From the IMG/VR virus record IMGVR_UViG_3300035698_001694, positions 1-20,399 of that record: 20,399 bases of DNA. One strand, written 5' to 3'. This DNA comes from a virus. The translations under genes were made by a program, and so were the position numbers. Of this stretch, positions 1,194 through 20,132 are shown piece after piece. The number at the start of each line of letters is the position of its first letter. Positions within the stretch are counted from its first letter, which is position 1. The notes beneath the pieces are model-generated. The model was not told where the DNA came from, made no database searches, and worked only from the letters and a program-made list of their open reading frames with translations.

Positions 1194-3770
1194 CTATTTA
1201 GTAGTTATTAATCTTGAGCCTACGGTGTCTAGTTCGTAATGAACCCCTATTGTAGCAACTAAGGCGTCGCCAGCATAAGCATCGCCCGTAGCAGCCACCC
1301 TCTCTATAGTGAATAATAATTGGTCTCCTATCGCTACGCCTGAACCATTATTGCCTGATGTCGCCCCCGTAATGGCCGCAAAATCAGACCTGTAACTTTC
1401 ATATTGCCTGTCTATAGCGGTGTCGGCAGTATCGATTACCGTAACAGCGTCCAAGGTTGTATCATCTCTCATTAAGACATAGGTCAATCGCCATTGGACG
1501 TTATCTGTACCTGACGGTGCGGCTATTCCCTGCCAATGGACATGGAAAGTAAAGTCGCTGCCCTCTTTATAGTCATGTTGCATTTCAATAGAACCAGAAG
1601 CCTTCTCGCCAATAGCATAGGCAAGCGTTGTTATTCCTGTATCTGCGCCGGCTTCTGTTAAAAAATTCCCTTCGTCAGGCTGACTGGCGGATGGCCTTGA
1701 CAACACGGAGGCACCCATGTTTATATCTTTCCACACGGTAGCTTCGCCATTAAATTCAAGTGTGCCGTCAGCCTCAAATTTAGAGTAATTAGCAGCACCG
1801 CCATCGCCAATCTTGGCACCAGCAGAACCTAATATTTCTCCATTTATTCTTAGGCTTTGCAGGGTTGGGTCATCAATGTCCTGAGCGTTCATTACTCCAT
1901 ATAATAGAGGATAGATGATTTCATTCGCTACACTGCCTCGGTCTTGATTATCTATGATGAATCTATTACCAAGAGAGGTTTGATTATACCCTGATTTATA
2001 ACCTATGAAGATACCATAATCACCTGAATCAATTTTATAGCCTGCTTGGTATCCTACGCCTACATTATAGGCGTGGTTATTTGTTGTAGCGGATTTACCA
2101 TTAAGAGCATAGGTTCCAATGGCAGTATTCCCGCCTAGCCCTGTTTTAACATAATAAAGAGAATTATAGCCCAATGCTGTATTAAGACTTGTATTAACAT
2201 TGAAGCCCGATCTTCTTCCGACAAAAGTATTTGAGCCAGTAGATGTTATGTCTAGTCCTGCTTGATACCCTATCAGAACATTATAATCTCCGTTTGAAAC
2301 TTTGTTACCTGCTCCATCACCTATGGCTATGTTATGTACAGAGCCATCAGTCAAGACTGGTAAAGTAATAGCAGAACCTATAGCGATGTTATTATCAGCA
2401 GTTCCTTTAAGAACCATCGTACCGTTAAGGACTGTATAGCTGCTGGTACTATCAACAAACAGCGTATTAGTGTCTACAGTGAGGTCGCCTGTGATAACGG
2501 CGGCGGCTGACATGAACACATTATTAGCAAAGGTATGAGATGGTACATCTCCTGCGGCGGTATACAACACATCTCCGTCCGTGCTCTGAACATGCACATC
2601 CAGATAACTCGACGTACCAACATGGTGTAATCTTAGCTGTGATTGGGTATTATCTATAGCATTTATTCTACCAGACGCACCGAGATTACCACTAACATGG
2701 AACCTTGAAAGTATGCCAGCACCAAATCCCTCATCGCCACCATAAGCGGTAGCGGCAAGAGCCTGTGTAGTTGAATCGTCAGGCGTGGCATAGAACTCTA
2801 TCTTAGTGCCAAGCTTGCCTGATGAATGTTGTTGGGTGGCAACGCCACGCATCTCGGCGGTTGTATCGAAGCCCGTACCATTCCAAGGCCCGACCTCGAA
2901 TTGCCCTATAGAATTGCCACTGGAATTATAATCCTCTGCTCCAGCGGCCACCTCAGCCTTATATAGTCTAAGCCTAGCACCACCAGAGTCATTGTCATAT
3001 CTGCGAACTTGTAATACTTCGGCGTTAAATCTGGAATAACCTGTATCCGTAGCTACAAACTCCGCTCCGCCTAGAATAGAGCCTGAGCCGTCAGCTTTGA
3101 CTGTGCCAGTCACATCGAGATTACCGGTGAATGTTCCCGTTCCGCCAGATAATGTTATGCCAGTGTCAGTAGCTTGCTTGACTGAAATATTATCAAACGT
3201 AACACTGTCGCTATCAGAGTAAACTCCCACCCCAAACCAACCACTTGCTAATGTATGGGTAAAAGTAAATGTTTGGTCTGTCCCTGTGGTCGTTATAACA
3301 TACAACTGGTTAAGATTGTCCCGAATGGCTACAGTTCCAGATACGGCTATTACATCAAACGTGACCTTGTAAGTTTCGCCAAGCGTGAGAATGTCTTGAA
3401 TTGCATTGGCGCTACCTGTTCCTCTTGTTAGAACGCCTTGTTCACTTACATTAGCCGCGAAAGTTGAACCACCCGACAAGTCGGACGTCCATCCAGTAAC
3501 ACCAGCCGAGAAATCCCAGTTGGTAAGTAACTCCGCCCCTAGCGTAGTGCCTATCTTAACGTCGCCATACGTGGTAAGATTGAACGTGCCACCTGTTACA
3601 TGCTGGTCTTCATCTGCTAGGCGCAGGAATGAGCCGGTGCCGACCGAGAGTGGGGTCTCGTTCTCCCACTTAGTAGTAGCAGAGTCATACTGCAAGATGT
3701 TCTCATCAGCTAGGGCTGTAAGGGTAACGTCTGGCAAAGTGGATAGGTTGGCTATTGGGTAGATTTGCAT
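1194..3770 (-). CDS. Tail fibre / receptor-binding protein
   Basis: An 858-residue beta-rich protein in the position of T7 gp17. Residues 1-60 have a phage tail-appendage start (LPDVTLTALADENILQYDS and a KW motif). Residues about 80-200 resemble a carbohydrate-binding jelly-roll (NWDFSAGVTGW ... VTFDNISVKQA). Residues 200-240 and 420-460 have short TGNLDVTGTV / ITGDLTVDTN linkers typical of trimeric fibres. Residues about 480-600 hold repeats of IGxxAG/NxxxGxxA type (NIAIGDGAGNK, NVLIGYQAGL, NVGVGYQAGY, GIFIGYKSGY), like the left-handed beta-roll of YadA-type adhesin heads. Residues about 735-858 form a terminal beta domain (FTFHVHWQGI ... VHYELDTVGSR). The start abuts the stop of the upstream gene (TAAATG). 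It probably trimerises and binds the host surface. No hydrolase active site or S74-type autocleavage motif was seen. Confidence 0.85.
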   Translation of the reverse strand: MQIYPIANLSTLPDVTLTALADENILQYDSATTKWENETPLSVGTGSFLRLADEDQHVTGGTFNLTTYGDVKIGTTLGAELLTNWDFSAGVTGWTSDLSGGSTFAANVSEQGVLTRGTGSANAIQDILTLGETYKVTFDVIAVSGTVAIRDNLNQLYVITTTGTDQTFTFTHTLASGWFGVGVYSDSDSVTFDNISVKQATDTGITLSGGTGTFTGNLDVTGTVKADGSGSILGGAEFVATDTGYSRFNAEVLQVRRYDNDSGGARLRLYKAEVAAGAEDYNSSGNSIGQFEVGPWNGTGFDTTAEMRGVATQQHSSGKLGTKIEFYATPDDSTTQALAATAYGGDEGFGAGILSRFHVSGNLGASGRINAIDNTQSQLRLHHVGTSSYLDVHVQSTDGDVLYTAAGDVPSHTFANNVFMSAAAVITGDLTVDTNTLFVDSTSSYTVLNGTMVLKGTADNNIAIGSAITLPVLTDGSVHNIAIGDGAGNKVSNGDYNVLIGYQAGLDITSTGSNTFVGRRSGFNVNTSLNTALGYNSLYYVKTGLGGNTAIGTYALNGKSATTNNHAYNVGVGYQAGYKIDSGDYGIFIGYKSGYNQTSLGNRFIIDNQDRGSVANEIIYPLLYGVMNAQDIDDPTLQSLRINGEILGSAGAKIGDGGAANYSKFEADGTLEFNGEATVWKDINMGASVLSRPSASQPDEGNFLTEAGADTGITTLAYAIGEKASGSIEMQHDYKEGSDFTFHVHWQGIAAPSGTDNVQWRLTYVLMRDDTTLDAVTVIDTADTAIDRQYESYRSDFAAITGATSGNNGSGVAIGDQLLFTIERVAATGDAYAGDALVATIGVHYELDTVGSRLITTK

Positions 3771-6700
3771 TTATTTACGGCTCTCCAGCTTAGTTATTCT
3801 ATATGCTGCTTTTATAGCCTTATCATAATCGGAGTTCCAGTTCTTATCTAGCTTGCGCATGTCTCGTCTTTCTTGTGGCTGGAATGTCTTCATGAACTTG
3901 TCCATATCCTGCTGAGATATATTACCCAGAGGAGAGAAATTCTGTTTAGACGATTCTATACTTACCATTAATGTCTCAGAATCCCTACTGTCAGAATTTA
4001 TAGCGGCCACTAGATAGTCAGTTGCATCATCTATATCACCGAGTGTTATTTGTTTGGCGGCGTATTTATATGGAAGAATGGTCTGGTATTTCTGTGGGCC
4101 AATTAGCATTTGCTTCGCTATCTTTCCCGCTCCAGCCACAAAACCAGGATGTTTCTGGCTTCCCTGCCAATCAAAGGTTCGCTGTCTAGTTCTCTTATAT
4201 TCAAAGAACATATTATTGTCGTTAAAGAACATCTTGTCAGCCCTAGCAGTAAGACCTTCTAAGTCCCTAGCGAGTGATAGTTCTTTGCCTGCCAGTTGTC
4301 TTGTAGCAATCATTGGATGTTTAAGATTAGCTGCCCATTCTAATATATTAACGCCAGTCTGACCAACTGCTCCTCGCACCCAATTTCCAACACCCCAAGA
4401 CATATCTGTTAATATCCCAACGCCAGCACCATCAACAAAGTCGTTAGCAAGAGCTAATGATATATCTGCTGTATTTCTCTTTTCAGGTCTATTAATTAGC
4501 TGTGAAGTTAGTGCGTTATCGCCACCACCTATGAAGTCTTTCGTTAGGTTCCATACCTCACCAGCCATGGTCGAAAATAATAGATACTTTAATAATGGTG
4601 CAAACGTCCCCTTAACAGCCTCTTTAATTGCATCCGTATAAATTAACCTTGTTTGGTTAATGGCAAATGTCTTAAACTTCAGACCCAATCTTAGGAAGGG
4701 GTTAGTCTTCCAAGGTATAGACCTTGAAGCGAAGTCCTGAATAAACTGTGTGTCAACAGATGCTCTGTGCATCACCCTATCAACATCGTCCATAGTCATA
4801 TGCTTCTTACCAGACCATATATCGTCTAGTTCTTTCTCTGTTATAGGATTAGTAAATGTTCTATTCCTTATAAAGTTCTCAAGATAACCCTCTGGATTTA
4901 GTGAGACATATCTTATTTTTTGCAGTATCTTATTTAGAGTCCCGTCCTTTTTGAGATTAGCCAAGTCTCTTATATGCGCCTCAGCAGAGAATCTAGATAT
5001 TAGAGCCGCCCTTATCTGTACGCTTTCCTCCGCCGCCGTGAACAATTTTAATGCAAGGCCAGCCGACAACGGTTCGTCGCTTGTACCTTGTTCAAACTCT
5101 ACCATCTCCTTTACGCCACCAACAGCACCAGATCGCAAAGCATCTTCATATAGCTTGGCCGCCTCTTTATTCCATTTGCGGAATAAGACTACGTGAGCGG
5201 CTTTAAGATGTGCAGACGCAGGAGCGGTAAATAGATTCACATCACCCTGTGTGGCATTTCTTATTGCCGACGGAACCCTAAAACCTAGCCTCACGTTTGT
5301 TTCATACCTATTGATGAGATTGACGGCATCCTCTACGAACTTAGGTATATCATTAGCAAGGCCGAATTCAGTTCGTATCCATTTCTTAATAGCCTCTGCA
5401 TCTTGCTGGCCAAACTCCTGTCCTATCTCGCCTATGTATTGCTTGGCTTTAGTGAAGTCTAATCTCTGTTCGTCAACGTCTGGATTGCTTTCAGTTAACG
5501 GGTTAGCTTCTGGAGCTTGTTGCTCTACGCCCCACACCTTAGCCGCTGCTATCATCTTAGCATTCTTATTGATTGCATGTGGTAATACTTTGGCTATATC
5601 TAACTCTACCCATGTGGCCGGCAGGATAGTTCTTGTTCTTTCAAAGTAACCATGCGAACCTCTAACCTCTTGATTATTCCAGTCTACCATTCTACCGAGC
5701 GCTGAATCTACATCTTCTGCCGTGCCATTAGCTACCATCTCTTCTGCCGCTGCACGCACGTGTGGGTCGCCTAAGCCGCTCTGTTTAGCTCTGGCTACAT
5801 TTAGCTTACCAACGTCGTTTAAGGTCTGAGGGAACCAACCACCAGTGCCTTCAAGGTTATTCCATTCGCCACCTATTAATCTACGGTAGCCAGCCTTATC
5901 GGCATCTAGCATATCCCTATCCATTAATTCTAATAGCTTCTTATTAATAGCTACTAGTTTTGTATTTCTAGCAAATGCTGCCCGTTTCTGCCCCATCTTG
6001 CCTAGCTTAATTCTATCGGCATGAGACAATCCTTTGATGATTTTCTCTAGATCATTCAGTTGCGAGGATTTCCTTTGCGCAGTCTGGAATGCTATCTCTC
6101 TTGTATCCTTAGCCAGACTCTTACCGGCCTTGATGCTACCATAGTTCTTCTCTATAACCTCTGCCGCCCTACCTGTATGGAATGAGATAGTCTTGGGTAA
6201 ATTAGTAATTATATTCTTTAGGTTCTTGGCATGAAGTTTAGCCGTAGCCAATATCTCATCTACTGCTATGGATGGTAGTGTGGTAGAGCCTTCTCGGAAG
6301 TCACCAACATGCCTCTTGATTACGTCTTCTTCGGTAAGTGGGCGGACTTCTTCTTTTGGTGTAGGTTGATGTTCATACAGATAATCGAACTCAAAAGCAG
6401 CATAGTTTTTATGATGTCCTTTTCCTATAGCTTGGATTTTGCCGAACCTAGATAGTTCTTTATACCCCTTACTCTTGCGAATCAGCGGGTCATTAGAAAC
6501 ATTGAAACCTTCTTTAAGATCGCGTATATGTTCTATTTCATGTCGTAATATACCTATGTCTTCTCTGCCTAATTGCTTTTCAACAGTAACGGTTGGGCCG
6601 TAATCCTCAATAACCTTATAGTCTTTGGCTTTTATCACAATAAGACCATCTTTATGCAACGGTAACTTTTCGCCTTCCGGTATTGTTTTGTTGAGTTGTT

Positions 6701-8492
6701 TTATCTCCTCTTTTGTAATAGTAGTCATAGGACTATCAACTATTCGTCCCTCTAGGCCATTGTTTTGTATATATGATGGTGTTATAATATCATAGTCAAG
6801 GTCGTATTTCTTTCTGTAATGTTCTGTTATTTTAGAGATTGTATCTTTGTTTATTTGTCCATCAGACACATTGTCTATAACCTTCTTGCCGACCAACCCG
6901 AGAGCTTTTCTTTGGTCTTTAGGTATTCCTCTATCTAATGTTGGGTCGGCACCAATATTTTCATCGAAGAATTTCTCTCTTAAGCTAACCGTCTTCGTCT
7001 TAGTTATTGGTCTCTTTATTACGTCTTCTTCGGTGAGAGGTCTGACCTCTTCGGGAATAGTCTGAGCGGGAGCATAAAACGCCTCTCGCCTTGACGAAGA
7101 ATCAACTCCTGGCGGAACTACAATATCTTTTATTGGTACCCATTTTCCTAACACTGGCTTGCCTTGCGCAAACGTTCGAGCGTAGCTTTCATCAAAAGTC
7201 ACATACCTTCCAGTTTTTAATTCTTTCCCGTGTCCACCCCTATAAACTTTAACCATGTCACCTTTTATTTGGTCAGCATCTAGGAAGTCTGGTGTAGTTT
7301 TTAGTATCTTGTCTAGGCTAATACTCTTCGCAATTTTTTGTTCTCTCTTGCCTATGACGTTTGTAGATATTGGTTTAGGCACTGCCTTAACTGGCGCAAC
7401 AGCTGGCTGGACAATACCACCCTTACTAATTGTAATAGGATTCTTACCGAAGTCCGCTGGAACCTTAACTTCTGATGCAGGTATTGCCTGTCTCGTGGCA
7501 TCTATACCAGCCTCGCCGTGGACATATTTCTTCATTAGGTCAGGCGGCATCTTGCCATTCTTTTTATAATAGTCCCTAGCCCTAACGACATCTTTGCGAA
7601 CCTGCGCACGTACCTCGGCTTGGTGATTCTTGGATGCAGATTTAACTAACCTTTTCATAGCAGGCCAAAGCTTAGTTAATACAGCCGCCGCTGCAACTTC
7701 GCCTGTTCCCCATAAAGCACCAATACCGCTCTGGAAATGGATGCCTTTCCAGTCCATTGGTTCACCTTTTATTATCTTCTGTGCGGCCTGATCTGCTGCC
7801 TCTCTTGTTCCAAAAGTAAGGCCACCACCCAATACTATCTTTAATGCCGCAGCCGCCGGTATCTTGGCAACAGTAGGAGAAACAAGGCCACCTACAGATT
7901 TAAGACTGCCGAGAAATTCCGCTCCTTTACCAGCAGTCTTTTCTGTGCTTGTTGGTTCAAAGCCAGTCCATGTATCAACTAAATCAGCCAGTGATTCTGG
8001 CGGTATAGTATCTTCGTCCACAAGATATTGGTTTGCTGAACTGACTATTACGTCTGGAAGATATAAGCCCCTACCTGAAGCATATTTAGCAAAGAAATGC
8101 AGACCAGCACCAGTAGCTGTTTTTAGTATCTGTTCGTTTCTGAACCGCTTCTCTACTACTTCTCCTTTTCTGTTCCTTGTATACTCACCTATATATGGTT
8201 GGAATAATCCAGTCTTTTCTGAGATGGGGTCTTTGATGTATTTATTGAACATTCTTACAACTGCACTTGGTTCTGGTCCAGCCTCTAACTGTTGTAACTC
8301 TTCTATGTTATCTTCTACTGCGCGTACTGGAACACGAAGACTCTTAGACTTAGCAAGAATATCGTTAGCCATAGACTCCACCTCTTCTCGACTGCGACGT
8401 GGCGGAGCGTACCTACTGCGAAGTTCATCTATCTCTGGAGAGTTACCATACCGTGATTCCAGTTCATCTATATAGTCAAGTTTAGTGGGCAT
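3771..8492 (-). CDS. Giant internal virion/ejection protein with ART and Zn-peptidase regions
   Basis: A 1573-residue protein in the T7 gp16 position. Residues about 400-478 resemble an ADP-ribosyltransferase core of polyvalent type: VYRG with Arg418, GRYVTFDESYARTFA (428-442), and REAFYAP with Glu470. Residues about 500-710 hold a zinc-peptidase signature, ILRHEIEHIRDLKEGF (HEIEH 651-655), with a possible third ligand in NYAAFEFDY near residue 701. Two copies of EEVRPLTEEDVIKR (481-494, 714-727) bracket it. Hydrophobic stretches lie at 203-225 and 1295-1312. From residue 750 on it is mostly helical with no recognised catalytic motif. I saw no lytic transglycosylase signature at the N-terminus, unlike T7 gp16. 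Its TAATG overlap with the upstream gene suggests coupled translation. It is probably packaged in the head and ejected into the host; both enzyme assignments rest on motifs only. Confidence 0.8.
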   Translation of the reverse strand: MPTKLDYIDELESRYGNSPEIDELRSRYAPPRRSREEVESMANDILAKSKSLRVPVRAVEDNIEELQQLEAGPEPSAVVRMFNKYIKDPISEKTGLFQPYIGEYTRNRKGEVVEKRFRNEQILKTATGAGLHFFAKYASGRGLYLPDVIVSSANQYLVDEDTIPPESLADLVDTWTGFEPTSTEKTAGKGAEFLGSLKSVGGLVSPTVAKIPAAAALKIVLGGGLTFGTREAADQAAQKIIKGEPMDWKGIHFQSGIGALWGTGEVAAAAVLTKLWPAMKRLVKSASKNHQAEVRAQVRKDVVRARDYYKKNGKMPPDLMKKYVHGEAGIDATRQAIPASEVKVPADFGKNPITISKGGIVQPAVAPVKAVPKPISTNVIGKREQKIAKSISLDKILKTTPDFLDADQIKGDMVKVYRGGHGKELKTGRYVTFDESYARTFAQGKPVLGKWVPIKDIVVPPGVDSSSRREAFYAPAQTIPEEVRPLTEEDVIKRPITKTKTVSLREKFFDENIGADPTLDRGIPKDQRKALGLVGKKVIDNVSDGQINKDTISKITEHYRKKYDLDYDIITPSYIQNNGLEGRIVDSPMTTITKEEIKQLNKTIPEGEKLPLHKDGLIVIKAKDYKVIEDYGPTVTVEKQLGREDIGILRHEIEHIRDLKEGFNVSNDPLIRKSKGYKELSRFGKIQAIGKGHHKNYAAFEFDYLYEHQPTPKEEVRPLTEEDVIKRHVGDFREGSTTLPSIAVDEILATAKLHAKNLKNIITNLPKTISFHTGRAAEVIEKNYGSIKAGKSLAKDTREIAFQTAQRKSSQLNDLEKIIKGLSHADRIKLGKMGQKRAAFARNTKLVAINKKLLELMDRDMLDADKAGYRRLIGGEWNNLEGTGGWFPQTLNDVGKLNVARAKQSGLGDPHVRAAAEEMVANGTAEDVDSALGRMVDWNNQEVRGSHGYFERTRTILPATWVELDIAKVLPHAINKNAKMIAAAKVWGVEQQAPEANPLTESNPDVDEQRLDFTKAKQYIGEIGQEFGQQDAEAIKKWIRTEFGLANDIPKFVEDAVNLINRYETNVRLGFRVPSAIRNATQGDVNLFTAPASAHLKAAHVVLFRKWNKEAAKLYEDALRSGAVGGVKEMVEFEQGTSDEPLSAGLALKLFTAAEESVQIRAALISRFSAEAHIRDLANLKKDGTLNKILQKIRYVSLNPEGYLENFIRNRTFTNPITEKELDDIWSGKKHMTMDDVDRVMHRASVDTQFIQDFASRSIPWKTNPFLRLGLKFKTFAINQTRLIYTDAIKEAVKGTFAPLLKYLLFSTMAGEVWNLTKDFIGGGDNALTSQLINRPEKRNTADISLALANDFVDGAGVGILTDMSWGVGNWVRGAVGQTGVNILEWAANLKHPMIATRQLAGKELSLARDLEGLTARADKMFFNDNNMFFEYKRTRQRTFDWQGSQKHPGFVAGAGKIAKQMLIGPQKYQTILPYKYAAKQITLGDIDDATDYLVAAINSDSRDSETLMVSIESSKQNFSPLGNISQQDMDKFMKTFQPQERRDMRKLDKNWNSDYDKAIKAAYRITKLESRK
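6312..6353 (-). repeat. Linker repeat, copy 2 (EEVRPLTEEDVIKR)
   Basis: Encodes residues 714-727 of the giant ejection protein, identical in protein sequence to the copy at 7011-7052. At DNA level 17 bases are identical in a row (6319-6335), and most other positions match or differ silently. It sits immediately after the zinc-peptidase region. Confidence 0.85.
7011..7052 (-). repeat. Linker repeat, copy 1 (EEVRPLTEEDVIKR)
   Basis: Encodes residues 481-494 of the giant ejection protein, just after the ADP-ribosyltransferase-like region and before the zinc-peptidase region. The exact 17-base core is at 7018-7034. The distance to the other copy is 699 bp, exactly 233 codons, so recombination between copies would delete the peptidase region in frame. 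Confidence 0.85.
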
Positions 8493-9921: not shown

Positions 9922-10431
9922 TTACGCATATACTGGAGTTGGCCCGGGCGAACCAGAGAATTCACCAATAGGACTCCCTCCACCACCGCCCATTCCAGCA
10001 GACATACCCAAACTTGCCAGTTGCAGGCCAAACTGGACATTTGCGGCTCTGGCTCCAGCCTTACCCTTCAGCTTGGACAGTTTACCTTGAAATATATCAA
10101 GTACAGCCTGAGACTCATGCTGTTGCGCAAGAACCTCGCCCTCATAACCTATCAAGAGATTTTCAAGTTCAAGCTCACCATCTTGTTCAGCAGCTAAATC
10201 ACCAGCAACAGGTGAGCTTAATCCACCAGCTGCACCGAGTTTGGTCTCTAATGCGCTCTTAATGGCCGCACCTTTTTTGGCCTGTCGCTTCTGAGCGAAC
10301 CCAGCCTTGGCACGTTCACCAATCGCTTTCTGTCTTTCGGTTTCTGCATTGAAGTTGGCTATATTCTGCTCAGACTTACCCTGCGCCCGTATGCCACCTG
10401 CACCACTTAAGCTCTCAAATAATCCAGACAT
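9922..10431 (-). CDS. Internal virion protein (gp14-like position)
   Basis: A 169-residue Ala/Gly-rich helical protein. The N-terminal helix contains AQGKSEQNIANFNAETERQ, a pattern I associate with internal virion protein B and related ejection proteins of short-tailed phages. A basic central part (GFAQKRQAKKGAA) follows, then a Gly-rich, mildly hydrophobic C-terminal region (LQLASLGMSAGMGGGGG). T7 gp14 is of similar size (196 residues) and forms the outer-membrane part of the ejection channel; the weakly hydrophobic tail would be compatible with that. It is separated from the upstream small gene by 1 nt and from the next gene by 32 nt. Role inferred from position and composition. Confidence 0.65.
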   Translation of the reverse strand: MSGLFESLSGAGGIRAQGKSEQNIANFNAETERQKAIGERAKAGFAQKRQAKKGAAIKSALETKLGAAGGLSSPVAGDLAAEQDGELELENLLIGYEGEVLAQQHESQAVLDIFQGKLSKLKGKAGARAANVQFGLQLASLGMSAGMGGGGGSPIGEFSGSPGPTPVYA

Positions 10432-10432
10432 A

Positions 10433-10651
10433 TTACCCTAACCTTTTCTTTTTATCTGTTTCAGGAACAAGATCTCCAGTTAGAAACGTTTCCTGTCTGC
10501 CACGAGGACGATTTTTCTTTGCTTGATCCCCAGCCTCATCGGTTTCAGTTGGAACAGGTGGCGTAGCGACTACAGGTGGTGGTTTAACTGTTTTTGGTTT
10601 ACTTTTATTCGCTGAATATATTAAACTGGCTGCAATGCCTAATCCGCCCAT
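10433..10651 (-). CDS. Small Pro/Lys-rich virion-region protein, 72 aa
   Basis: A short N-terminal hydrophobic stretch (MGGLGIAASLIYSA) is followed by a Pro/Val/Thr-rich linker (PKTVKPPPVVATPPVPTETD) and a basic C-terminus of the type RPRGRQETFLTGDLVPE ending KKRLG. The combination RGRxxTxLTG plus a terminal KK-x-LG recurs in small phage proteins encoded near internal virion genes. The start overlaps the upstream GNAT-like gene stop as TAATG, with an AAAGGA site 7 nt upstream. It could be membrane-associated through its N-terminus. Function unknown; an accessory of the ejection complex is plausible from position only. Confidence 0.65.
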   Translation of the reverse strand: MGGLGIAASLIYSANKSKPKTVKPPPVVATPPVPTETDEAGDQAKKNRPRGRQETFLTGDLVPETDKKKRLG

Positions 10652-11079
10652 TATAGTATCCTTTTATATAAATACATATCTGTTTTGTCTGGTGCATACT
10701 TTTCCAATGTAGCTTCCCGCTCGAACCCTAAAAATTCTATCATCTCAACAGCCTTGTCAAAATCAACCCTTACCATGGCTTCGGCACGCCAGAGGTTGTT
10801 CTTCTCTATTAGATGCTCAGTCTTCTCGCGTATCGCCATTAAGATCCTAACGCCATGTATGCCGTTCTTCTTACAATCATCGGTCAACATCAGCCATAAC
10901 AGTCCCACGCCCTCCCAGCGAACGCACAGGCCGCCTACGGCGACAATAGCACTCTCATATGTCATGCAGTAAGTGTTCTCGTCTGGGCATTCCATATATG
11001 GGTAGTTTTTAACTGCTCCTTCAAAAGGATTCTGCCGTACAAATGCCAAGTCTTCTTGTGTGGCTGGTCTAAATTCCAT
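10651..11079 (-). CDS. GNAT-like protein in T7 gp13 position
   Basis: 142 residues from the chosen ATG at 11079 (MEFRPATQEDLAFVRQNPFE). This start shares its A with the stop of the nozzle gene (TAATG). An in-frame upstream ATG would need a 49-nt overlap and adds residues that do not look like the family. The pattern fits the acetyltransferase (GNAT) fold: an initial FRPATQEDL strand-helix, a central IVAVGGLCVR strand, a helix after VGLLWLMLTDDCKKNGI, and a late FDKAVEMIEFLGFERE helix-strand. The usual acetyl-CoA loop (Q/R-x-x-G-x-G/A) is not clear; KKNGIHG is the nearest match, so activity is doubtful. T7 gp13, encoded just after the nozzle, has a similar length and look. A structural or assembly role is as likely as acetylation. 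Confidence 0.75.
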   Translation of the reverse strand: MEFRPATQEDLAFVRQNPFEGAVKNYPYMECPDENTYCMTYESAIVAVGGLCVRWEGVGLLWLMLTDDCKKNGIHGVRILMAIREKTEHLIEKNNLWRAEAMVRVDFDKAVEMIEFLGFEREATLEKYAPDKTDMYLYKRIL

Positions 11080-14000
11080 TATCGTCCTGACTTCTCCACT
11101 CTTGGTATTATAGCCCTCACTACACATGGTAGCGGATCGGACTGTGATATGACCATTGAATCGTCTATATCAAACCCGCCAGCAAATGGGACTGTTACAT
11201 CTCCGGTAAACAGGCCATCTATTTTGCTTTTATTCTTTAGTCTTGCTTCGTCAAAATTAATATCAAATAGATTATCGTCATCTCTGCCGTATTTAGCGCC
11301 AACAGTATCCTTGAAGCTAACCACTATTTCGTGTATCTTCTTAATACTGCCATGAGTAGTACCTGTTGAAGTATTAGAATCCATTCGCATTGGCGTCAGC
11401 TTTGACTCAAATCCCAGACCAACCCTTACGTTTAAGGCCTGAGTAGTAAGTGATATTTTGCCATCCGTGACTCGCTGATCGTCAAGAACCTCGCCATCAG
11501 CTAGAATTTTAACTGTTTTGTCTTCAAGATGTTCCAAGTCAGTGATAGTATCTGTTGCTGGTCCAGTATAGATTATACCGCTATCAACAAAGAAAGCGTT
11601 CTCTTTTCTAATATCAAGAATTCTTGGTTCGAACTTTTCTATATACACTTTATTGTCGCCGTCAATTGCACGTACGATGGAAATCCAAACTTCGTCCTCT
11701 AATGGAGATGGTATAACCATTACTGATTGGACCAACCCATCCATAGGCATATTTGCCCATGCAACAACGCTCTGATCACGTTCATAACTTAACGTGATAA
11801 GATTGCCATTATTAAGCACACACCATAAAATCGAATCAGGATTCTTCTGATGAGCTACCGAAGCTATACCTGATACCGTAATATGTTCTGCCAGAGATGT
11901 TAGGTCAGGTGCTACATATTTTTGGTCAGCATCCCTAAAAGTGAATTCTCTAATCTTGCGACCAACAAAATCAACAAACAAAAGAACTGAGCCGACAGAT
12001 AATACCTGTATGTCCGAGCTGCCATATGCTGTTTGCTTTTTCATGTCCCAATTGGATGGGGTCAAAGCTTCGTCGAGTGGAGCCTTTATTCGCCATTCAT
12101 CTCCCGCCGTACCTGCCGCAAGTGTGCCAAGCGAACCCAACCATCTCCCCTTATTAGCTGTAGGCAATGTAAGAGCAAATGAATCAGAGTCGTTGATACC
12201 AGCTCTAAAATCTTCGAAGTCGCCTGTCTTACTCAACCATATATTCTGTTGGTCTGAATCTGTAAAACCATATACTGCACGTTCTTCAAAGAATGTAAAC
12301 GCAGACGGATAACCTCTTAACGTAGACCACGAACCTTCAGCCCATCTTTTAGTATCTGTTGTTTGACTAATCGCAGATACAACAGTTACCTCTGCTTTTG
12401 TATTTGATTCAATACCATTTATTCGTACTACGCCTGATTGCGTGCTTGATGTGGCATGGAGGTCGGCATTTACTGTGCCACTCGTATATGCCGTTACATT
12501 CATGCGGAATCTAACATTATCTTCTTGCTCAATGCCTTCAAACTGAACATTTCTACTTCCAACATTACTTACCAGCTTTGAAGTGTATGTCCTGAATGGT
12601 TCCCATCCAGCATCATTTTCGTTTCTTTCTAATACTACGGTGGCTCCCCAGTTGCCCTGTGTGTTAAAATTAAAGCTGCCTTCAATGTCGATCGGAGTTT
12701 TTATTACGCCAACACTTGTTGCCGAGCCTTCAACTGAATTAGTATTCACTAGTAAACTTGAGGATATTTTCCCAGACGTATGGGCAGTTACGTTTATACG
12801 ATACTGAGCATCCTCCGTAGTCTCTGTACCTTTAATTGACTTTCCAGTATAAAAAGTTTGCAAATCTGTAGTTGTTGCAAAATCATCTGTGCTTTTTTGA
12901 AGACGTACCGTCCCTACCCAACCTGTAGTAGTAATAGAAAATGTGTAATCGCCAAGAACCTCTATCGCTTCGCCTATAATTCCAGTCTCAGTACCAGTTT
13001 TAACTCCATTAGTTTGGCGATTAATTCGTGGATGGGTAAGTTCAAACAAAGCGCCGATATGACCAGCCTGGAATGTGCCTGATGAGCGAGTCAGTGTCCC
13101 TGTTTCACCAGCACCAGTCACGTCCACGTTCATAGTAACGCCATCGTCATTAGCTATATCGTTTCTTTCGATAAACGGGCCTTTATTGAATACGGCATCG
13201 TCCAGTGAGAATGTTGTTGGTGTCGTTCTGCTTAGTTTTGCTGGTGAGTGAGAACCATACACAATCCACATAACATCAGCGATTTGTTCTGTTTGCAAAC
13301 TGAGTAACTCTGAGGATTCGTATGGTGTCGTTATTTCGACATGGGCATCTGCGTCACCTAATAACGGCTCCCCATCAAAATAAAATCTGGCGTACTCTTC
13401 GCCAAACTCAATTGGATAAGCTATATCAGATGAGTATATAAAAGGCATCATTCTAACAACATCAAGTGGAGCCAGTGAATTAGGACGTTCTATTTCCAAA
13501 CTCAGTGCAATCGAAGACGGTATAACGGTTACATCTTGTTCTATTTGTATAGAGACGCTACCAAGAGATAATGATAATGCAAACTCAGACGGTTCATTTG
13601 TGTGACCGATAACTACAGATGGTGCATTAAGAGCAAGCGAAAGGGTTCGTGTTGTATCTTCTTCAGTATAGTCTATTGCAACAGTTGGCGCATTTAATGT
13701 CGCCGTTATTGTTACTGTAGCTGGAAGCACATCAATACTATCGTCAATGCTAATAGCTGGTGGTGAAACACTTAAAGACAAAGTCAACACATCAGGCTCT
13801 ACTGTCACAGTTACATTGGTCTGTTTAAATGCAGCTACACACATGCACCAGTCATCATCGCCATTGTAAATACCTCCACCATAAACTCCTGCTCCGTATG
13901 TCTGGGTTGTCCAGCCAGTCGCTATTGCTGCGGCAGTAACTTGTAATGTGTACTGGTTAGCATCGGCATAAGAACCGTTATCAGTTGCGTTTAGCTCTGT

Positions 14001-14474
14001 TCCAGTTTGTGCCGTTGGAATAAAATCTTCACCACTGCCAAGCACGCCCACTACGACCGCTCCATTTACAGTCGGAGTAACTGACACAGAAGGACTTGCG
14101 GAAGTTCCAGAACTACCTCCATCAACATCTAATGCGCTTGTAAATCCAGCCGGAACACTATAACTTGATGCCTGAACATGCAATACTAGAGAATCAGGGT
14201 TTGGAATACTAATTTGGTAGGCAGAACTGACATCTGGGTCTGTTAAATACCACAACTCGCAACTTATTTCTGGGTTAGTACCATGCTGTTGTGTTTCGTC
14301 TGCCTGCGTTAAGGCTACACTGTTATAAGTTGGCGCACCGCCTGCGCGTTTAGTCGAACCACTTGTTATTATACCAACAACTAGAAGCGTGGCGCTTGAG
14401 CCACAAGTATAGTCGCTTGTAAGAGGATTAGAGCTTCCGGTGAATCTTGAATTAGTATCAAATATGTGTGCCAC
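11079..14474 (-). CDS. Tail nozzle protein (gp12-like) body fused to N-terminal beta-rich domain
   Basis: 1131 residues from a GTG start (MAHIFDTNSR) with AAGGA 8 nt upstream; the only nearby ATG is out of frame. Residues 1-217 form a beta-rich domain (SSATLLVVGI, APTYNSVALTQ, SCELWYLTDP, NGAVVVGVLGSG). Residues about 222-332 hold five short degenerate repeats of the type LSLSVSPPAISID / LSLALNAPSVVIG. From residue 338 it becomes a tail tubular protein B/nozzle body: DVVRMMPFIYSSDIAYPIEF, EEYARFYFDGEPLL, then two related beta domains (about 497-590 and 590-690), AVYGFTDSDQQNIWLSKTGDF (732-753) and a C-terminal beta part. T7 gp12 is about 790 residues. The body matches the family, but its usual N-terminus is missing and is found instead in the 58-residue ORF at 15623-15799. 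It should form the hexameric nozzle below the gp11-like ring. Confidence 0.85.
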   Translation of the reverse strand: MAHIFDTNSRFTGSSNPLTSDYTCGSSATLLVVGIITSGSTKRAGGAPTYNSVALTQADETQQHGTNPEISCELWYLTDPDVSSAYQISIPNPDSLVLHVQASSYSVPAGFTSALDVDGGSSGTSASPSVSVTPTVNGAVVVGVLGSGEDFIPTAQTGTELNATDNGSYADANQYTLQVTAAAIATGWTTQTYGAGVYGGGIYNGDDDWCMCVAAFKQTNVTVTVEPDVLTLSLSVSPPAISIDDSIDVLPATVTITATLNAPTVAIDYTEEDTTRTLSLALNAPSVVIGHTNEPSEFALSLSLGSVSIQIEQDVTVIPSSIALSLEIERPNSLAPLDVVRMMPFIYSSDIAYPIEFGEEYARFYFDGEPLLGDADAHVEITTPYESSELLSLQTEQIADVMWIVYGSHSPAKLSRTTPTTFSLDDAVFNKGPFIERNDIANDDGVTMNVDVTGAGETGTLTRSSGTFQAGHIGALFELTHPRINRQTNGVKTGTETGIIGEAIEVLGDYTFSITTTGWVGTVRLQKSTDDFATTTDLQTFYTGKSIKGTETTEDAQYRINVTAHTSGKISSSLLVNTNSVEGSATSVGVIKTPIDIEGSFNFNTQGNWGATVVLERNENDAGWEPFRTYTSKLVSNVGSRNVQFEGIEQEDNVRFRMNVTAYTSGTVNADLHATSSTQSGVVRINGIESNTKAEVTVVSAISQTTDTKRWAEGSWSTLRGYPSAFTFFEERAVYGFTDSDQQNIWLSKTGDFEDFRAGINDSDSFALTLPTANKGRWLGSLGTLAAGTAGDEWRIKAPLDEALTPSNWDMKKQTAYGSSDIQVLSVGSVLLFVDFVGRKIREFTFRDADQKYVAPDLTSLAEHITVSGIASVAHQKNPDSILWCVLNNGNLITLSYERDQSVVAWANMPMDGLVQSVMVIPSPLEDEVWISIVRAIDGDNKVYIEKFEPRILDIRKENAFFVDSGIIYTGPATDTITDLEHLEDKTVKILADGEVLDDQRVTDGKISLTTQALNVRVGLGFESKLTPMRMDSNTSTGTTHGSIKKIHEIVVSFKDTVGAKYGRDDDNLFDINFDEARLKNKSKIDGLFTGDVTVPFAGGFDIDDSMVISQSDPLPCVVRAIIPRVEKSGR

Positions 14475-15799: not shown

Positions 15800-16184
15800 C
15801 TGGATAACTCCTTGTCGGGTATCTGTTCAGCACCCTACTCCCTTGCGCTAATAAGTTAAGAATATTAATTTCTTCTTCACCGCCCCAAGACATTTCCCCT
15901 TGCCCCATACCAGTGTCTGTTCTTGCTGGCATTGCTCCTGCTCTTATCATTATTTGCACATTATAAATAGCAGAATCTGTTATTGTTGTTGGAAAATCTA
16001 CCGAATAATAATTCGGCAAACCAACCGGATTAACTAACGGAATATCATATTCGTCTATTCTAGTCTCAGAGAACTGTTCAAAATCCTCTTCAAGATCATT
16101 CCATACAGCACTGTCAGATTGCCGCCATATCAATGCGTATATAGACGTTGATATTTTATAAGTTGTCCATATTTCACCAGCCAT
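15792..16184 (-). CDS. Beta-rich phage structural protein, 130 aa
   Basis: Begins MAGEIWTTYKISTSIYALIW and contains YDIPLVNPVGLPNYYSVDFP, TITDSAIYNVQIMIRAGAMP, a GQGEMSWGGEEEINIL segment and a C-terminal RVLNRYP. The arrangement (an opening W-T-Y-x-x-Y motif, Y-x-x-DFP, a Y-x-V strand followed by x-AG-x-P, then GE-x-x-WGG) recurs in phage proteins near tail genes with no known function, and suggests a small beta-sandwich. The start overlaps the gp11-like gene stop as TAATG, and the stop overlaps the nozzle N-terminal ORF by 8 nt. It is probably a minor tail or neck component. Confidence 0.7.
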   Translation of the reverse strand: MAGEIWTTYKISTSIYALIWRQSDSAVWNDLEEDFEQFSETRIDEYDIPLVNPVGLPNYYSVDFPTTITDSAIYNVQIMIRAGAMPARTDTGMGQGEMSWGGEEEINILNLLAQGSRVLNRYPTRSYPDV

Positions 16185-16816
16185 TAATACCTCATCGGAT
16201 AATCTGGATTACTGCCATATCTTGCATCGTTCCATGTTCCTGATTCAAGACTACCTGCCGTGTTCATTTCCTGAGCAGCCATCGCTCTTACGGATGGCAT
16301 CACATTTTCTATTGCAGCATCAATCTTTTTCTGTATCCGTGCGTCACCTCCAGCCAAAGGACCAACCATTTCATCGGCCAGAAGTAGGGTTAACACCTTA
16401 ATAAATAGGGGAGTAAACTTTGTAACATCTGTGACTTTTTTTACATATCGAACTTCCATCTCTGATTCATTCGTTAAAAGCATTGTACCTTCAAGGGCAT
16501 AAGAACGAACATTCACATCTGAAAATCTATTTTCATAAATAGATCTCATTGCAAGATAGTCATCAGGTAGTGGAAATTGATAATCCCACTCAAAATCAGG
16601 AGTATCAGCGGATACTGTTAAAGTCTCTCTATCAGAAGTGAATCTCCACGGATAAGATTCCTCTAATGCATTTCTTGTTTCTTCGTAATGAAGCCTACAC
16701 TGAATGGCCTGAACACTGTTATCAGATTCAACGCTGTCTTCTATAGTTAAAGAACCAATCTTGCCAAGAGCCATATTACATATCGCTGTTTCAGTTAATG
16801 TTTCGCTTAATGCCAT
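16184..16816 (-). CDS. Tail tubular protein A (T7 gp11-like)
   Basis: 210 residues, close to T7 gp11 (196). The N-terminal helical part has the family pattern TETAICNMALGKIGSLTIED followed by AIQCRLHYEETRNALEESYPWRFTSDRETL (about residues 8-70). Then come the core FPLPDDYLAMRSIYENRF, the strand EVRYVKKVTDVTKFTPLFIK, and a C-terminal helix with LLADEMVGPLAGGD. This protein forms the dodecameric ring between portal and nozzle. An AGGAT site lies 7 nt before the ATG. It precedes the nozzle genes as in T7. Confidence 0.88.
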   Translation of the reverse strand: MALSETLTETAICNMALGKIGSLTIEDSVESDNSVQAIQCRLHYEETRNALEESYPWRFTSDRETLTVSADTPDFEWDYQFPLPDDYLAMRSIYENRFSDVNVRSYALEGTMLLTNESEMEVRYVKKVTDVTKFTPLFIKVLTLLLADEMVGPLAGGDARIQKKIDAAIENVMPSVRAMAAQEMNTAGSLESGTWNDARYGSNPDYPMRY

Positions 16817-19211: not shown

Positions 19212-20132
19212 TTATGCAGTGTCTAGTTCAATCGAAACGACTGCTGGCCCTTCGACTCTTGTTGCACCCACTCCCAGTGTCGAAAAGATCTGGGTAGAAT
19301 TGAGTAGGTCAGGACGTACATCAATGCTCACGTTCGGCTCAGTTTGAACCGATAATGTTACCGCATCCTGTGCGAAAGCATAACTACGTGTAGCCGCCGT
19401 ATCGGTGCCGGTTGCAAGTCTGGTACTCTTCACGAACTTAAAGCCCATAAAGGTATCAATCTTGCCCTGCGCCAATGCTTTGACTGTGTTATAATCCGCA
19501 CTCTTAACCTCTGTGGTGTTCAACAGTTGGTTAATGTTATGCGGGTTCGTAAGGAAAATACGTGGGCGATCTTCGTCGATCTCAGCGTTGTCCAGAAGTT
19601 CCTTGCAAGTTAGCAACTTAGCAATTGTCAATGCTGTCTCAGCTGCACCTGCGTGTACTCCACCAGCGGCAACAATCGTACCATCAGAGTCAATAAGACG
19701 ACATTCGCCTACTGCCCCAACTAGAATGGTTGTAGCGCCTGTGTGGCCACCGTAAACGGAACCGCCAAGTGCTGCTATGATAACATCGTCAATCTGCCTA
19801 TTTAATGAAAATGCCTGATTCTGTGCATACGGACTCTGTGGGTCTATAAGCATTTTCAAACGGTCTGGTTTGTCAATTATGTCAGCCGGAACTACATAAT
19901 CAACAATTGTCAGTTTTCGCCTTGAATGGTCTGCATCAGAAATAGGAGTCTCGCCGTGACGTGCGCCACGTGCCTGAGCGTCCTTAGGTCCAATACGTTC
20001 CACAAATAGCGTATCACCTGTGCATGGCTCTTCACCGCAATACATTCTTAGTTTCGCAGGTTTTTGCTGCGACAGCATAAGAATATTGCTGGTTACTTGA
20101 TCCACAAAGGCAATTGGTATCTGTTGTGACAT
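19212..20132 (-). CDS. Major capsid protein
   Basis: 306 residues. The central stretch SRRKLTIVDYVVPADIIDKP followed by DRLKMLIDPQSPYAQNQAFS and LNRQIDDVIIAALGG (about residues 70-124) is typical of a phage capsid family found in podoviruses (Phage_capsid_2 / capsid 13-like): a tyrosine-rich strand, a D-K-x-D...L-DP-S-Y motif, then the long helix ending IDDVIIAALGG. The C-terminal part has the regular FAQDAVTLSVQTEPNVSIDV and LGVGATRVEGPAVVSIEL strands expected for the HK97 A domain and P strands. Length fits the family. AAAGG lies 7 nt upstream of the ATG. It is preceded by a structured 137-nt leader and followed by a probable decoration gene and a terminator. Confidence 0.85.
   Translation of the reverse strand: MSQQIPIAFVDQVTSNILMLSQQKPAKLRMYCGEEPCTGDTLFVERIGPKDAQARGARHGETPISDADHSRRKLTIVDYVVPADIIDKPDRLKMLIDPQSPYAQNQAFSLNRQIDDVIIAALGGSVYGGHTGATTILVGAVGECRLIDSDGTIVAAGGVHAGAAETALTIAKLLTCKELLDNAEIDEDRPRIFLTNPHNINQLLNTTEVKSADYNTVKALAQGKIDTFMGFKFVKSTRLATGTDTAATRSYAFAQDAVTLSVQTEPNVSIDVRPDLLNSTQIFSTLGVGATRVEGPAVVSIELDTA

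Follow-up and report, generated by a model that had tools for sequence, protein, structure and literature searches.

A podovirus related to pelagiphage HTVC010P encodes a putative polyvalent, probably ejected effector protein at the T7 gp16 locus

The polyvalent proteins of phages and conjugative elements (Iyer et al. 2017) are large, multidomain and probably packaged in the phage head; their phage-type zincins carry the signature HExxH with an Asp three residues downstream, their ADP-ribosyltransferase (ART) usually has an H-Y-D active site, and their zincins have been proposed both to process phage proteins and to target host proteins (PMC5512222). The packaging of ARTs is an established idea, and such enzymes have been reported in only about 3% of podoviruses (PMC9503650). 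T4 Alt is a head-packaged ART with R-S-E-type residues that is injected with the DNA. In the T7-like morphogenesis module, the large internal protein is gp16, which has an N-terminal lytic transglycosylase. Here, we describe a 1573-aa protein that may combine features of these systems.

The window is a whole IMG/VR record, a linear fragment of 20,399 bases. On its minus strand lie the late genes of a podovirus (short-tailed phage), in the order major capsid protein, gp11-like, gp12-like, gp13/gp14-like, gp15-position gene, an ATG-initiated ORF of 1573 aa, and fiber gene (Table 1). The contig is a podovirus related to pelagiphage HTVC010P; its capsid protein shares 38 to 44% identity with the capsid proteins of numerous pelagiphages, HTVC010P and EXVC032P Baldr among them. 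The phrog_308 match of the small internal virion protein at the gp13 position is weak. About 340 additional N-terminal residues precede the phrog_376 match of the gp12-like tail protein, and the fiber protein has, near its N terminus, a sub-threshold match to the carbohydrate-binding domain CBM_4_9 (E = 8e-4).

The original prediction had placed the 1573-aa ORF at the T7 gp16 locus, and the gene order agrees, since the ORF sits between the gp15-position gene and the fiber gene. Genome position, size class, and neighbors are shared with T7 gp16 and with WDQ27601.1, the 2329-aa protein at the gp16 place in Baldr, which has the same gene order. The Baldr protein also has a mid-protein HExxH (HELGH at 1164), and this motif occurs in large proteins of other relatives as well. 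Unlike T7 gp16, our protein has no N-terminal lytic transglycosylase in Pfam and PHROGs searches, just as had been noticed from the sequence, and it shows no sequence similarity to T7 gp16 or WDQ27601.1. Like polyvalent proteins (PMC5512222), it is large, probably head-packaged, and apparently multidomain, with an ART-like domain backed by a profile and a candidate peptidase recognized by an HExxH motif of the expected type; unlike them, it lies at the gp16 locus of a T7-like module and has no Pfam match to an MPTase, an LPD, or another polyvalent signature domain. We favor the reading, with a probability of roughly 0.6, that this relative of HTVC010P uses the ORF product as its large internal (ejection) protein and that the product has a polyvalent architecture. 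Judging from its gene position, the protein would reside in the head core and enter the cell with the first DNA, and its ejection is likely. We have recorded it as a polyvalent, probably ejected effector protein of putative function.

Table 1. Features of the late-gene module and of the 1573-aa protein (positions in the window)
Feature	Position	Strand	Basis or remark
Major capsid protein (Phage_capsid_2)	19212..20132	-	Pfam E = 1e-61
gp11-like tail protein (phrog_394)	16184..16816	-	PHROGs
gp12-like tail protein (phrog_376)	11079..14474	-	PHROGs E = 7e-152
phrog_4177 / phrog_308 protein, gp13 position	10651..11127	-	PHROGs; phrog_308 label is internal virion protein
gp14-like internal virion protein (phrog_418)	9922..10431	-	PHROGs E = 8e-10
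gp15-position protein, 465 aa	8492..9889	-	Mainly N terminus conserved in relatives
Putatively ejected polyvalent virion protein (1573 aa) at the T7 gp16 position	3771..8492	-	ORF and gene order
N-module, residues 1-373	7374..8492	-	Sole part with protein-level homologs; common to three further large phage proteins
ART-like domain, residues 408-478 (R418, T432, E470)	7059..7271	-	Profile E = 0.005; hhalign 94.6%
Bookend peptide copy 1, EEVRPLTEEDVIKR, residues 481-494	7011..7052	-	Direct repeat
Putative zinc-metallopeptidase region, residues 495-713	6354..7010	-	HExxHxxDxxEGF motif; bracketed by duplicated peptide
HEIEHIRDLKEGF, residues 651-663 (H651, E652, H655, D658)	6504..6542	-	Motif
Bookend peptide copy 2, EEVRPLTEEDVIKR, residues 714-727	6312..6353	-	7/42 nt differ from copy 1, all synonymous
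C-terminal part, residues 728-1573	3774..6311	-	No detectable homolog
Fiber/tail-spike protein, directly downstream of the 1573-aa ORF	1194..3770	-	PHROGs

The proposed layout is an N-module common to other phages, followed by an ART-like domain, a putative zincin-type metallopeptidase, and a long C-terminal part. No part of the protein matches a curated family in Pfam, NCBIfam, or PHROGs, and apart from the N-module, neither the whole protein nor its domains have close relatives in viral contigs, phages, or plasmids. Relatives of the N-module were found by comparison with whole viral records, and they share only residues 8 to 383 with our protein. A 1216-aa protein (G007; L091:4856-8503) matches residues 8 to 373 at 39 to 43% identity, and over its last 800 residues it shares 46% identity with the C-terminal part of another phage protein (L084), whose N-terminal part differs. 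The G007 protein is thus our N-module joined to the L084 C-module, which is clear evidence of intragenic module exchange. A second search with the N-module yielded two more proteins (L101 and L102), again with only N-terminal residues in common, the furthest match ending at 383; at the C-terminal end of the L102 protein lies LPD38, one of the named domains of polyvalent proteins (E = 7e-43), so that the N-module and LPD38 co-occur there. These large proteins are thus mosaics.

The segment with the ART-like and peptidase regions starts right where similarity to all relatives ends (about residues 373 to 383). Its right border is not set by homologs because residues 728 to 1573 have none, and a profile comparison of this C-terminal part with large proteins of other phages gave no match. 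In five viral records with gp12-like proteins 61 to 74% identical to ours, gp14 is 53 to 64% identical and gp15 is recognizable mainly at its N terminus, and the gp16-position protein has no similarity to the 1573-aa protein. The gp16-position gene is therefore hypervariable, unlike its neighbors. Among these relatives, variability climbs from gp14 through gp15 to gp16.

The stretch 6300-7300, for which candidate ART and zinc-peptidase regions had been proposed, corresponds to residues ~398 to 731 of the ORF, and the motifs lie at the residues originally given: VYRG at 416 to 419, GRYVTF from 428 (T432), REAFY from 469 (E470), and HEIEH at 651 to 655. A wider form of the ART-like pattern arose in 0.02% of 20,000 shuffles of the protein. 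A weak plasmid match led to a Vibrio protein (L115) and from there to the phage family phrog_2579, which PHROGs names "ParB C-terminal domain." We built a profile of its C-terminal domain from eight members, leaving out the 1573-aa protein. Among ~7,090 sequences, hmmsearch with this profile found residues 410 to 476 (E = 0.005; positions 14 to 83 of 87), with a score exceeding those of all 2,000 shuffles of the protein. With hhalign, the probability of a match to the family was 94.6%, falling to 87.6% without L115 and to 53% without both L115 and L117, the nearest members; 250 control segments reached at most 20%, 6%, and 4% in the same three comparisons. L115 was found using the 1573-aa sequence and the other members via L115, a circularity that the leave-outs address in part: the leave-out profiles were weaker (E = 0.05 to 0.65), yet the 1573-aa protein was still the best nonmember. 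The match is confined to segment 376-495; no other part of the protein matches. Residues 408 to 478 belong to the phrog_2579 C-terminal domain family, and the match is not due to chance. It is nearly full-length with respect to the domain in Mycobacterium phage Myrna gp78, Gordonia phage Pupper gp109, and others; these proteins, in contrast to ours, are smaller and not gp16-like, with the core GDWVT in place of GRYVT.

Whether this family is an ART is a separate question. In the alignment of eight sequences, positions G428, V431, Y437, A438, and E470 do not vary; the conserved columns also include those of R418 and T432. Some members have Gly or Ser at the T432 column, and two that seemingly lack the Arg have an IYRAVP stretch further upstream. 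The most conserved columns are YR, G-[DRK]-[WY]-V-T, YA, and E followed by an aromatic residue. In ARTs of the R-S/T-E class, Arg lies in strand 1, Ser or Thr in strand 2, and Glu in strand 5 of the fold. Judged by the order of Arg, Thr, and Glu alone, the phrog_2579 C-terminal family would be an ART family. We found no ART match for residues 408 to 478 in Pfam, NCBIfam, or the PDB, and the family profile found no ART in the PDB; PDB sequence searches with the regions of the protein returned nothing or noise, and an AlphaFold model made without homologs was uninformative (pLDDT 40). A short hypothetical protein of Vibrio harveyi plasmid p3 (L114:3638-4309) has YRG / STD / ESE and the look of an R-S-E-type ART. 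Genome contigs scanned at the DNA level with a degenerate form of the ART core yielded eight matches, all of them by chance in unrelated proteins.

These residues could instead form a binding or structural domain, acting on DNA for example, in which Arg, Thr, and Glu are conserved for structural reasons. The PHROG label, the lack of an ART match by any profile, and the Gly or Ser that some members have in place of T432 are in keeping with such a domain; against it, the most conserved columns follow the order of the ART catalytic residues, and our domain aligns with 91.5% probability to the YRG / STD / ESE protein of the Vibrio plasmid. We consider a non-ART domain rather unlikely and an ART fold moderately probable. 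Thus, the proposed ART region gained a real phage domain family with R, T, and E on conserved columns, whereas the fold itself drew no support from libraries, the PDB, or the model. A kinship with the usual ART of polyvalent proteins was not borne out: the residues here are R-T-E versus H-Y-D (PMC5512222), PF18760 (ART-PolyVal, H-Y-D) gave no Pfam match even at E = 10, and the single PF18760 member fetched reached 2.7% probability against the phrog_2579-type family. The resemblance to T4 Alt concerns the proposed role; Alt is a separate protein with no detected homology, so that any such role of the 1573-aa protein is by analogy only.

In the peptidase region, H651-E652-I-E-H655-I-R-D658-L-K-E-G-F has the form described for phage-type zincins of polyvalent proteins, in which an Asp follows HExxH at a distance of three residues (PMC5512222). 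Whereas HExxH alone appeared in 2.9% of 20,000 shuffles of the protein, HExxHxxDxxEG[FY] never did. A DNA-level scan of 2.9 million viral contigs for HE[hydrophobic][EQ]HxxDxxEGF gave three in-frame matches in two distinct other proteins, one of 750 aa and one, from a phage, of 3211 aa. In zincins of this type, a Glu in a later helix is a further ligand; the best candidate for this third zinc ligand, from its spacing, may be E701 (6390-6392), which lies in a second predicted helix of a low-confidence AlphaFold model. Zincin identity is probable. The original claim of a zinc peptidase is supported at the level of the signature, including its EGF extension; the fold gained no such support: the region has no Pfam match and no whole-domain profile match, the part aligned by profile comparison is limited to ~20 residues at the motif, and the AlphaFold model made without homologs was uninformative (pLDDT 36).

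The best support for the ART-like and peptidase regions belonging together comes from Vibrio phage PS25B.1 (L116; MW824406.1 12936-19604). This phage has the same late-gene order, with the 2222-aa protein QZI92142.1 at the gp16 position; it matches phrog_9880 and is annotated as hypothetical only. The protein contains a phrog_2579-type domain at residues ~829 to 910 (E = 2.5e-12), followed by HEFSH at residue 969. The similarity detected to our protein is limited to the ART-like domain, and PS25B.1 differs in its HEFSH subtype and in having an LPD22 polyvalent domain. Hence, the order of ART-like domain and then zinc-peptidase motif is common to two podoviruses whose gp16-position proteins show no further detected similarity.

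A further feature, not mentioned in the original prediction, is a 41-nt direct repeat that encodes EEVRPLTEEDVIKR twice, immediately on either side of the peptidase region; we refer to the two copies as bookends. All 14 residues are identical between the copies, with seven synonymous and no nonsynonymous changes, and the flanking codons are unrelated. Such a synonymous-only outcome occurred in at most 3 of 100,000 simulated neutral trials (~3e-5 at most). Therefore, either EEVRPLTEEDVIKR is under selection at both places or two selected copies were brought together, and a recent DNA duplication artefact is an unlikely source of the 14-mer given the same pattern. This purifying selection also bears on the possibility that the protein is a rapidly evolving structural ejection protein devoid of enzymatic activity, its motifs being relics or chance. 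The hypervariability of the gene and the lack of a full-domain profile match in the peptidase region would fit that explanation. The shuffle statistics, the specificity of the ART-like profile match, the selection acting on the bookends, and the unrelated podophage PS25B.1, where the two regions follow one another in the same order, speak against it, and we hold it to be highly unlikely.

The two copies are candidate processing sites of the protease between them; alternatively, they may mark a hinge or a recombination seam. The latter is part of another explanation, in which the metallopeptidase targets host proteins, such as a defense protein, rather than a phage protein, and the bookend is a conserved hinge or seam. 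The two roles proposed for polyvalent zincins (PMC5512222), the mosaicism of the modules, as in the joining of the N-module to the L084 C-module in G007, and the resemblance of EEVRPLTEEDVIKR to a helix-start hinge all agree with it; yet seven synonymous and no nonsynonymous changes over 14 codons between unrelated flanks are not what it predicts. We regard this explanation as possible, at odds somewhat short of even. Self-processing at the bookends is a tentative proposal that we view with some doubt.

Returning to the favored ejected polyvalent protein, the zincin would be a processing protease, perhaps with a preference for the pair of identical peptides that border it. Cleavage there would free the zincin and part the ART-like half from the C-terminal body, and the ART-like domain may then modify a host macromolecule with NAD+ early in infection, as its motif and the analogy with T4 Alt suggest. 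The full chain, in which the selected peptides are cleavage sites, the ejected protein cuts itself and frees an R-T-E ADP-ribosyltransferase, and phrog_2579 is a widespread unrecognized phage ART family, is improbable as a whole. The original proposal that two host-modifying activities are joined to the ejection machinery is plausible and draws partial support from the locus and neighbors of an internal virion protein, the phrog_2579-type family, the zincin signature, and the PS25B.1 parallel; ART activity, the zincin fold, ejection, and self-processing are putative.

New in this analysis are the limitation of homologs to residues 8 to 383, the bookend peptide, and the parallel order in PS25B.1. 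If our reading is correct, this phage would join those that deliver host-modifying enzymes together with their genome: a lineage related to the abundant pelagiphages would employ its DNA-ejection protein to carry effectors and would swap the effector part between close relatives. The cutting targets of polyvalent zinc peptidases would become testable, with bookend peptides as explicit candidate substrates, as would the proposed ART identity of the phrog_2579 C-terminal domain, which occurs in phages of Vibrio, cyanobacteria, and actinobacteria.

Bookends are not general in polyvalent proteins: we found none in ten further LPD38 proteins and about 10 others, the one exception being a polyvalent protein of 4728 aa encoded in an unrelated bacterial genome (L131; G313:C17), which has bookends of the same kind. 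There, DDVRYSVARID (residues 3516 and 3764) brackets an ART-PolyVal domain and the shorter GRALTEDE (residues 2743 and 3438) brackets an HExxH region. The two GRALTEDE copies differ at seven nucleotides, all of them synonymous.
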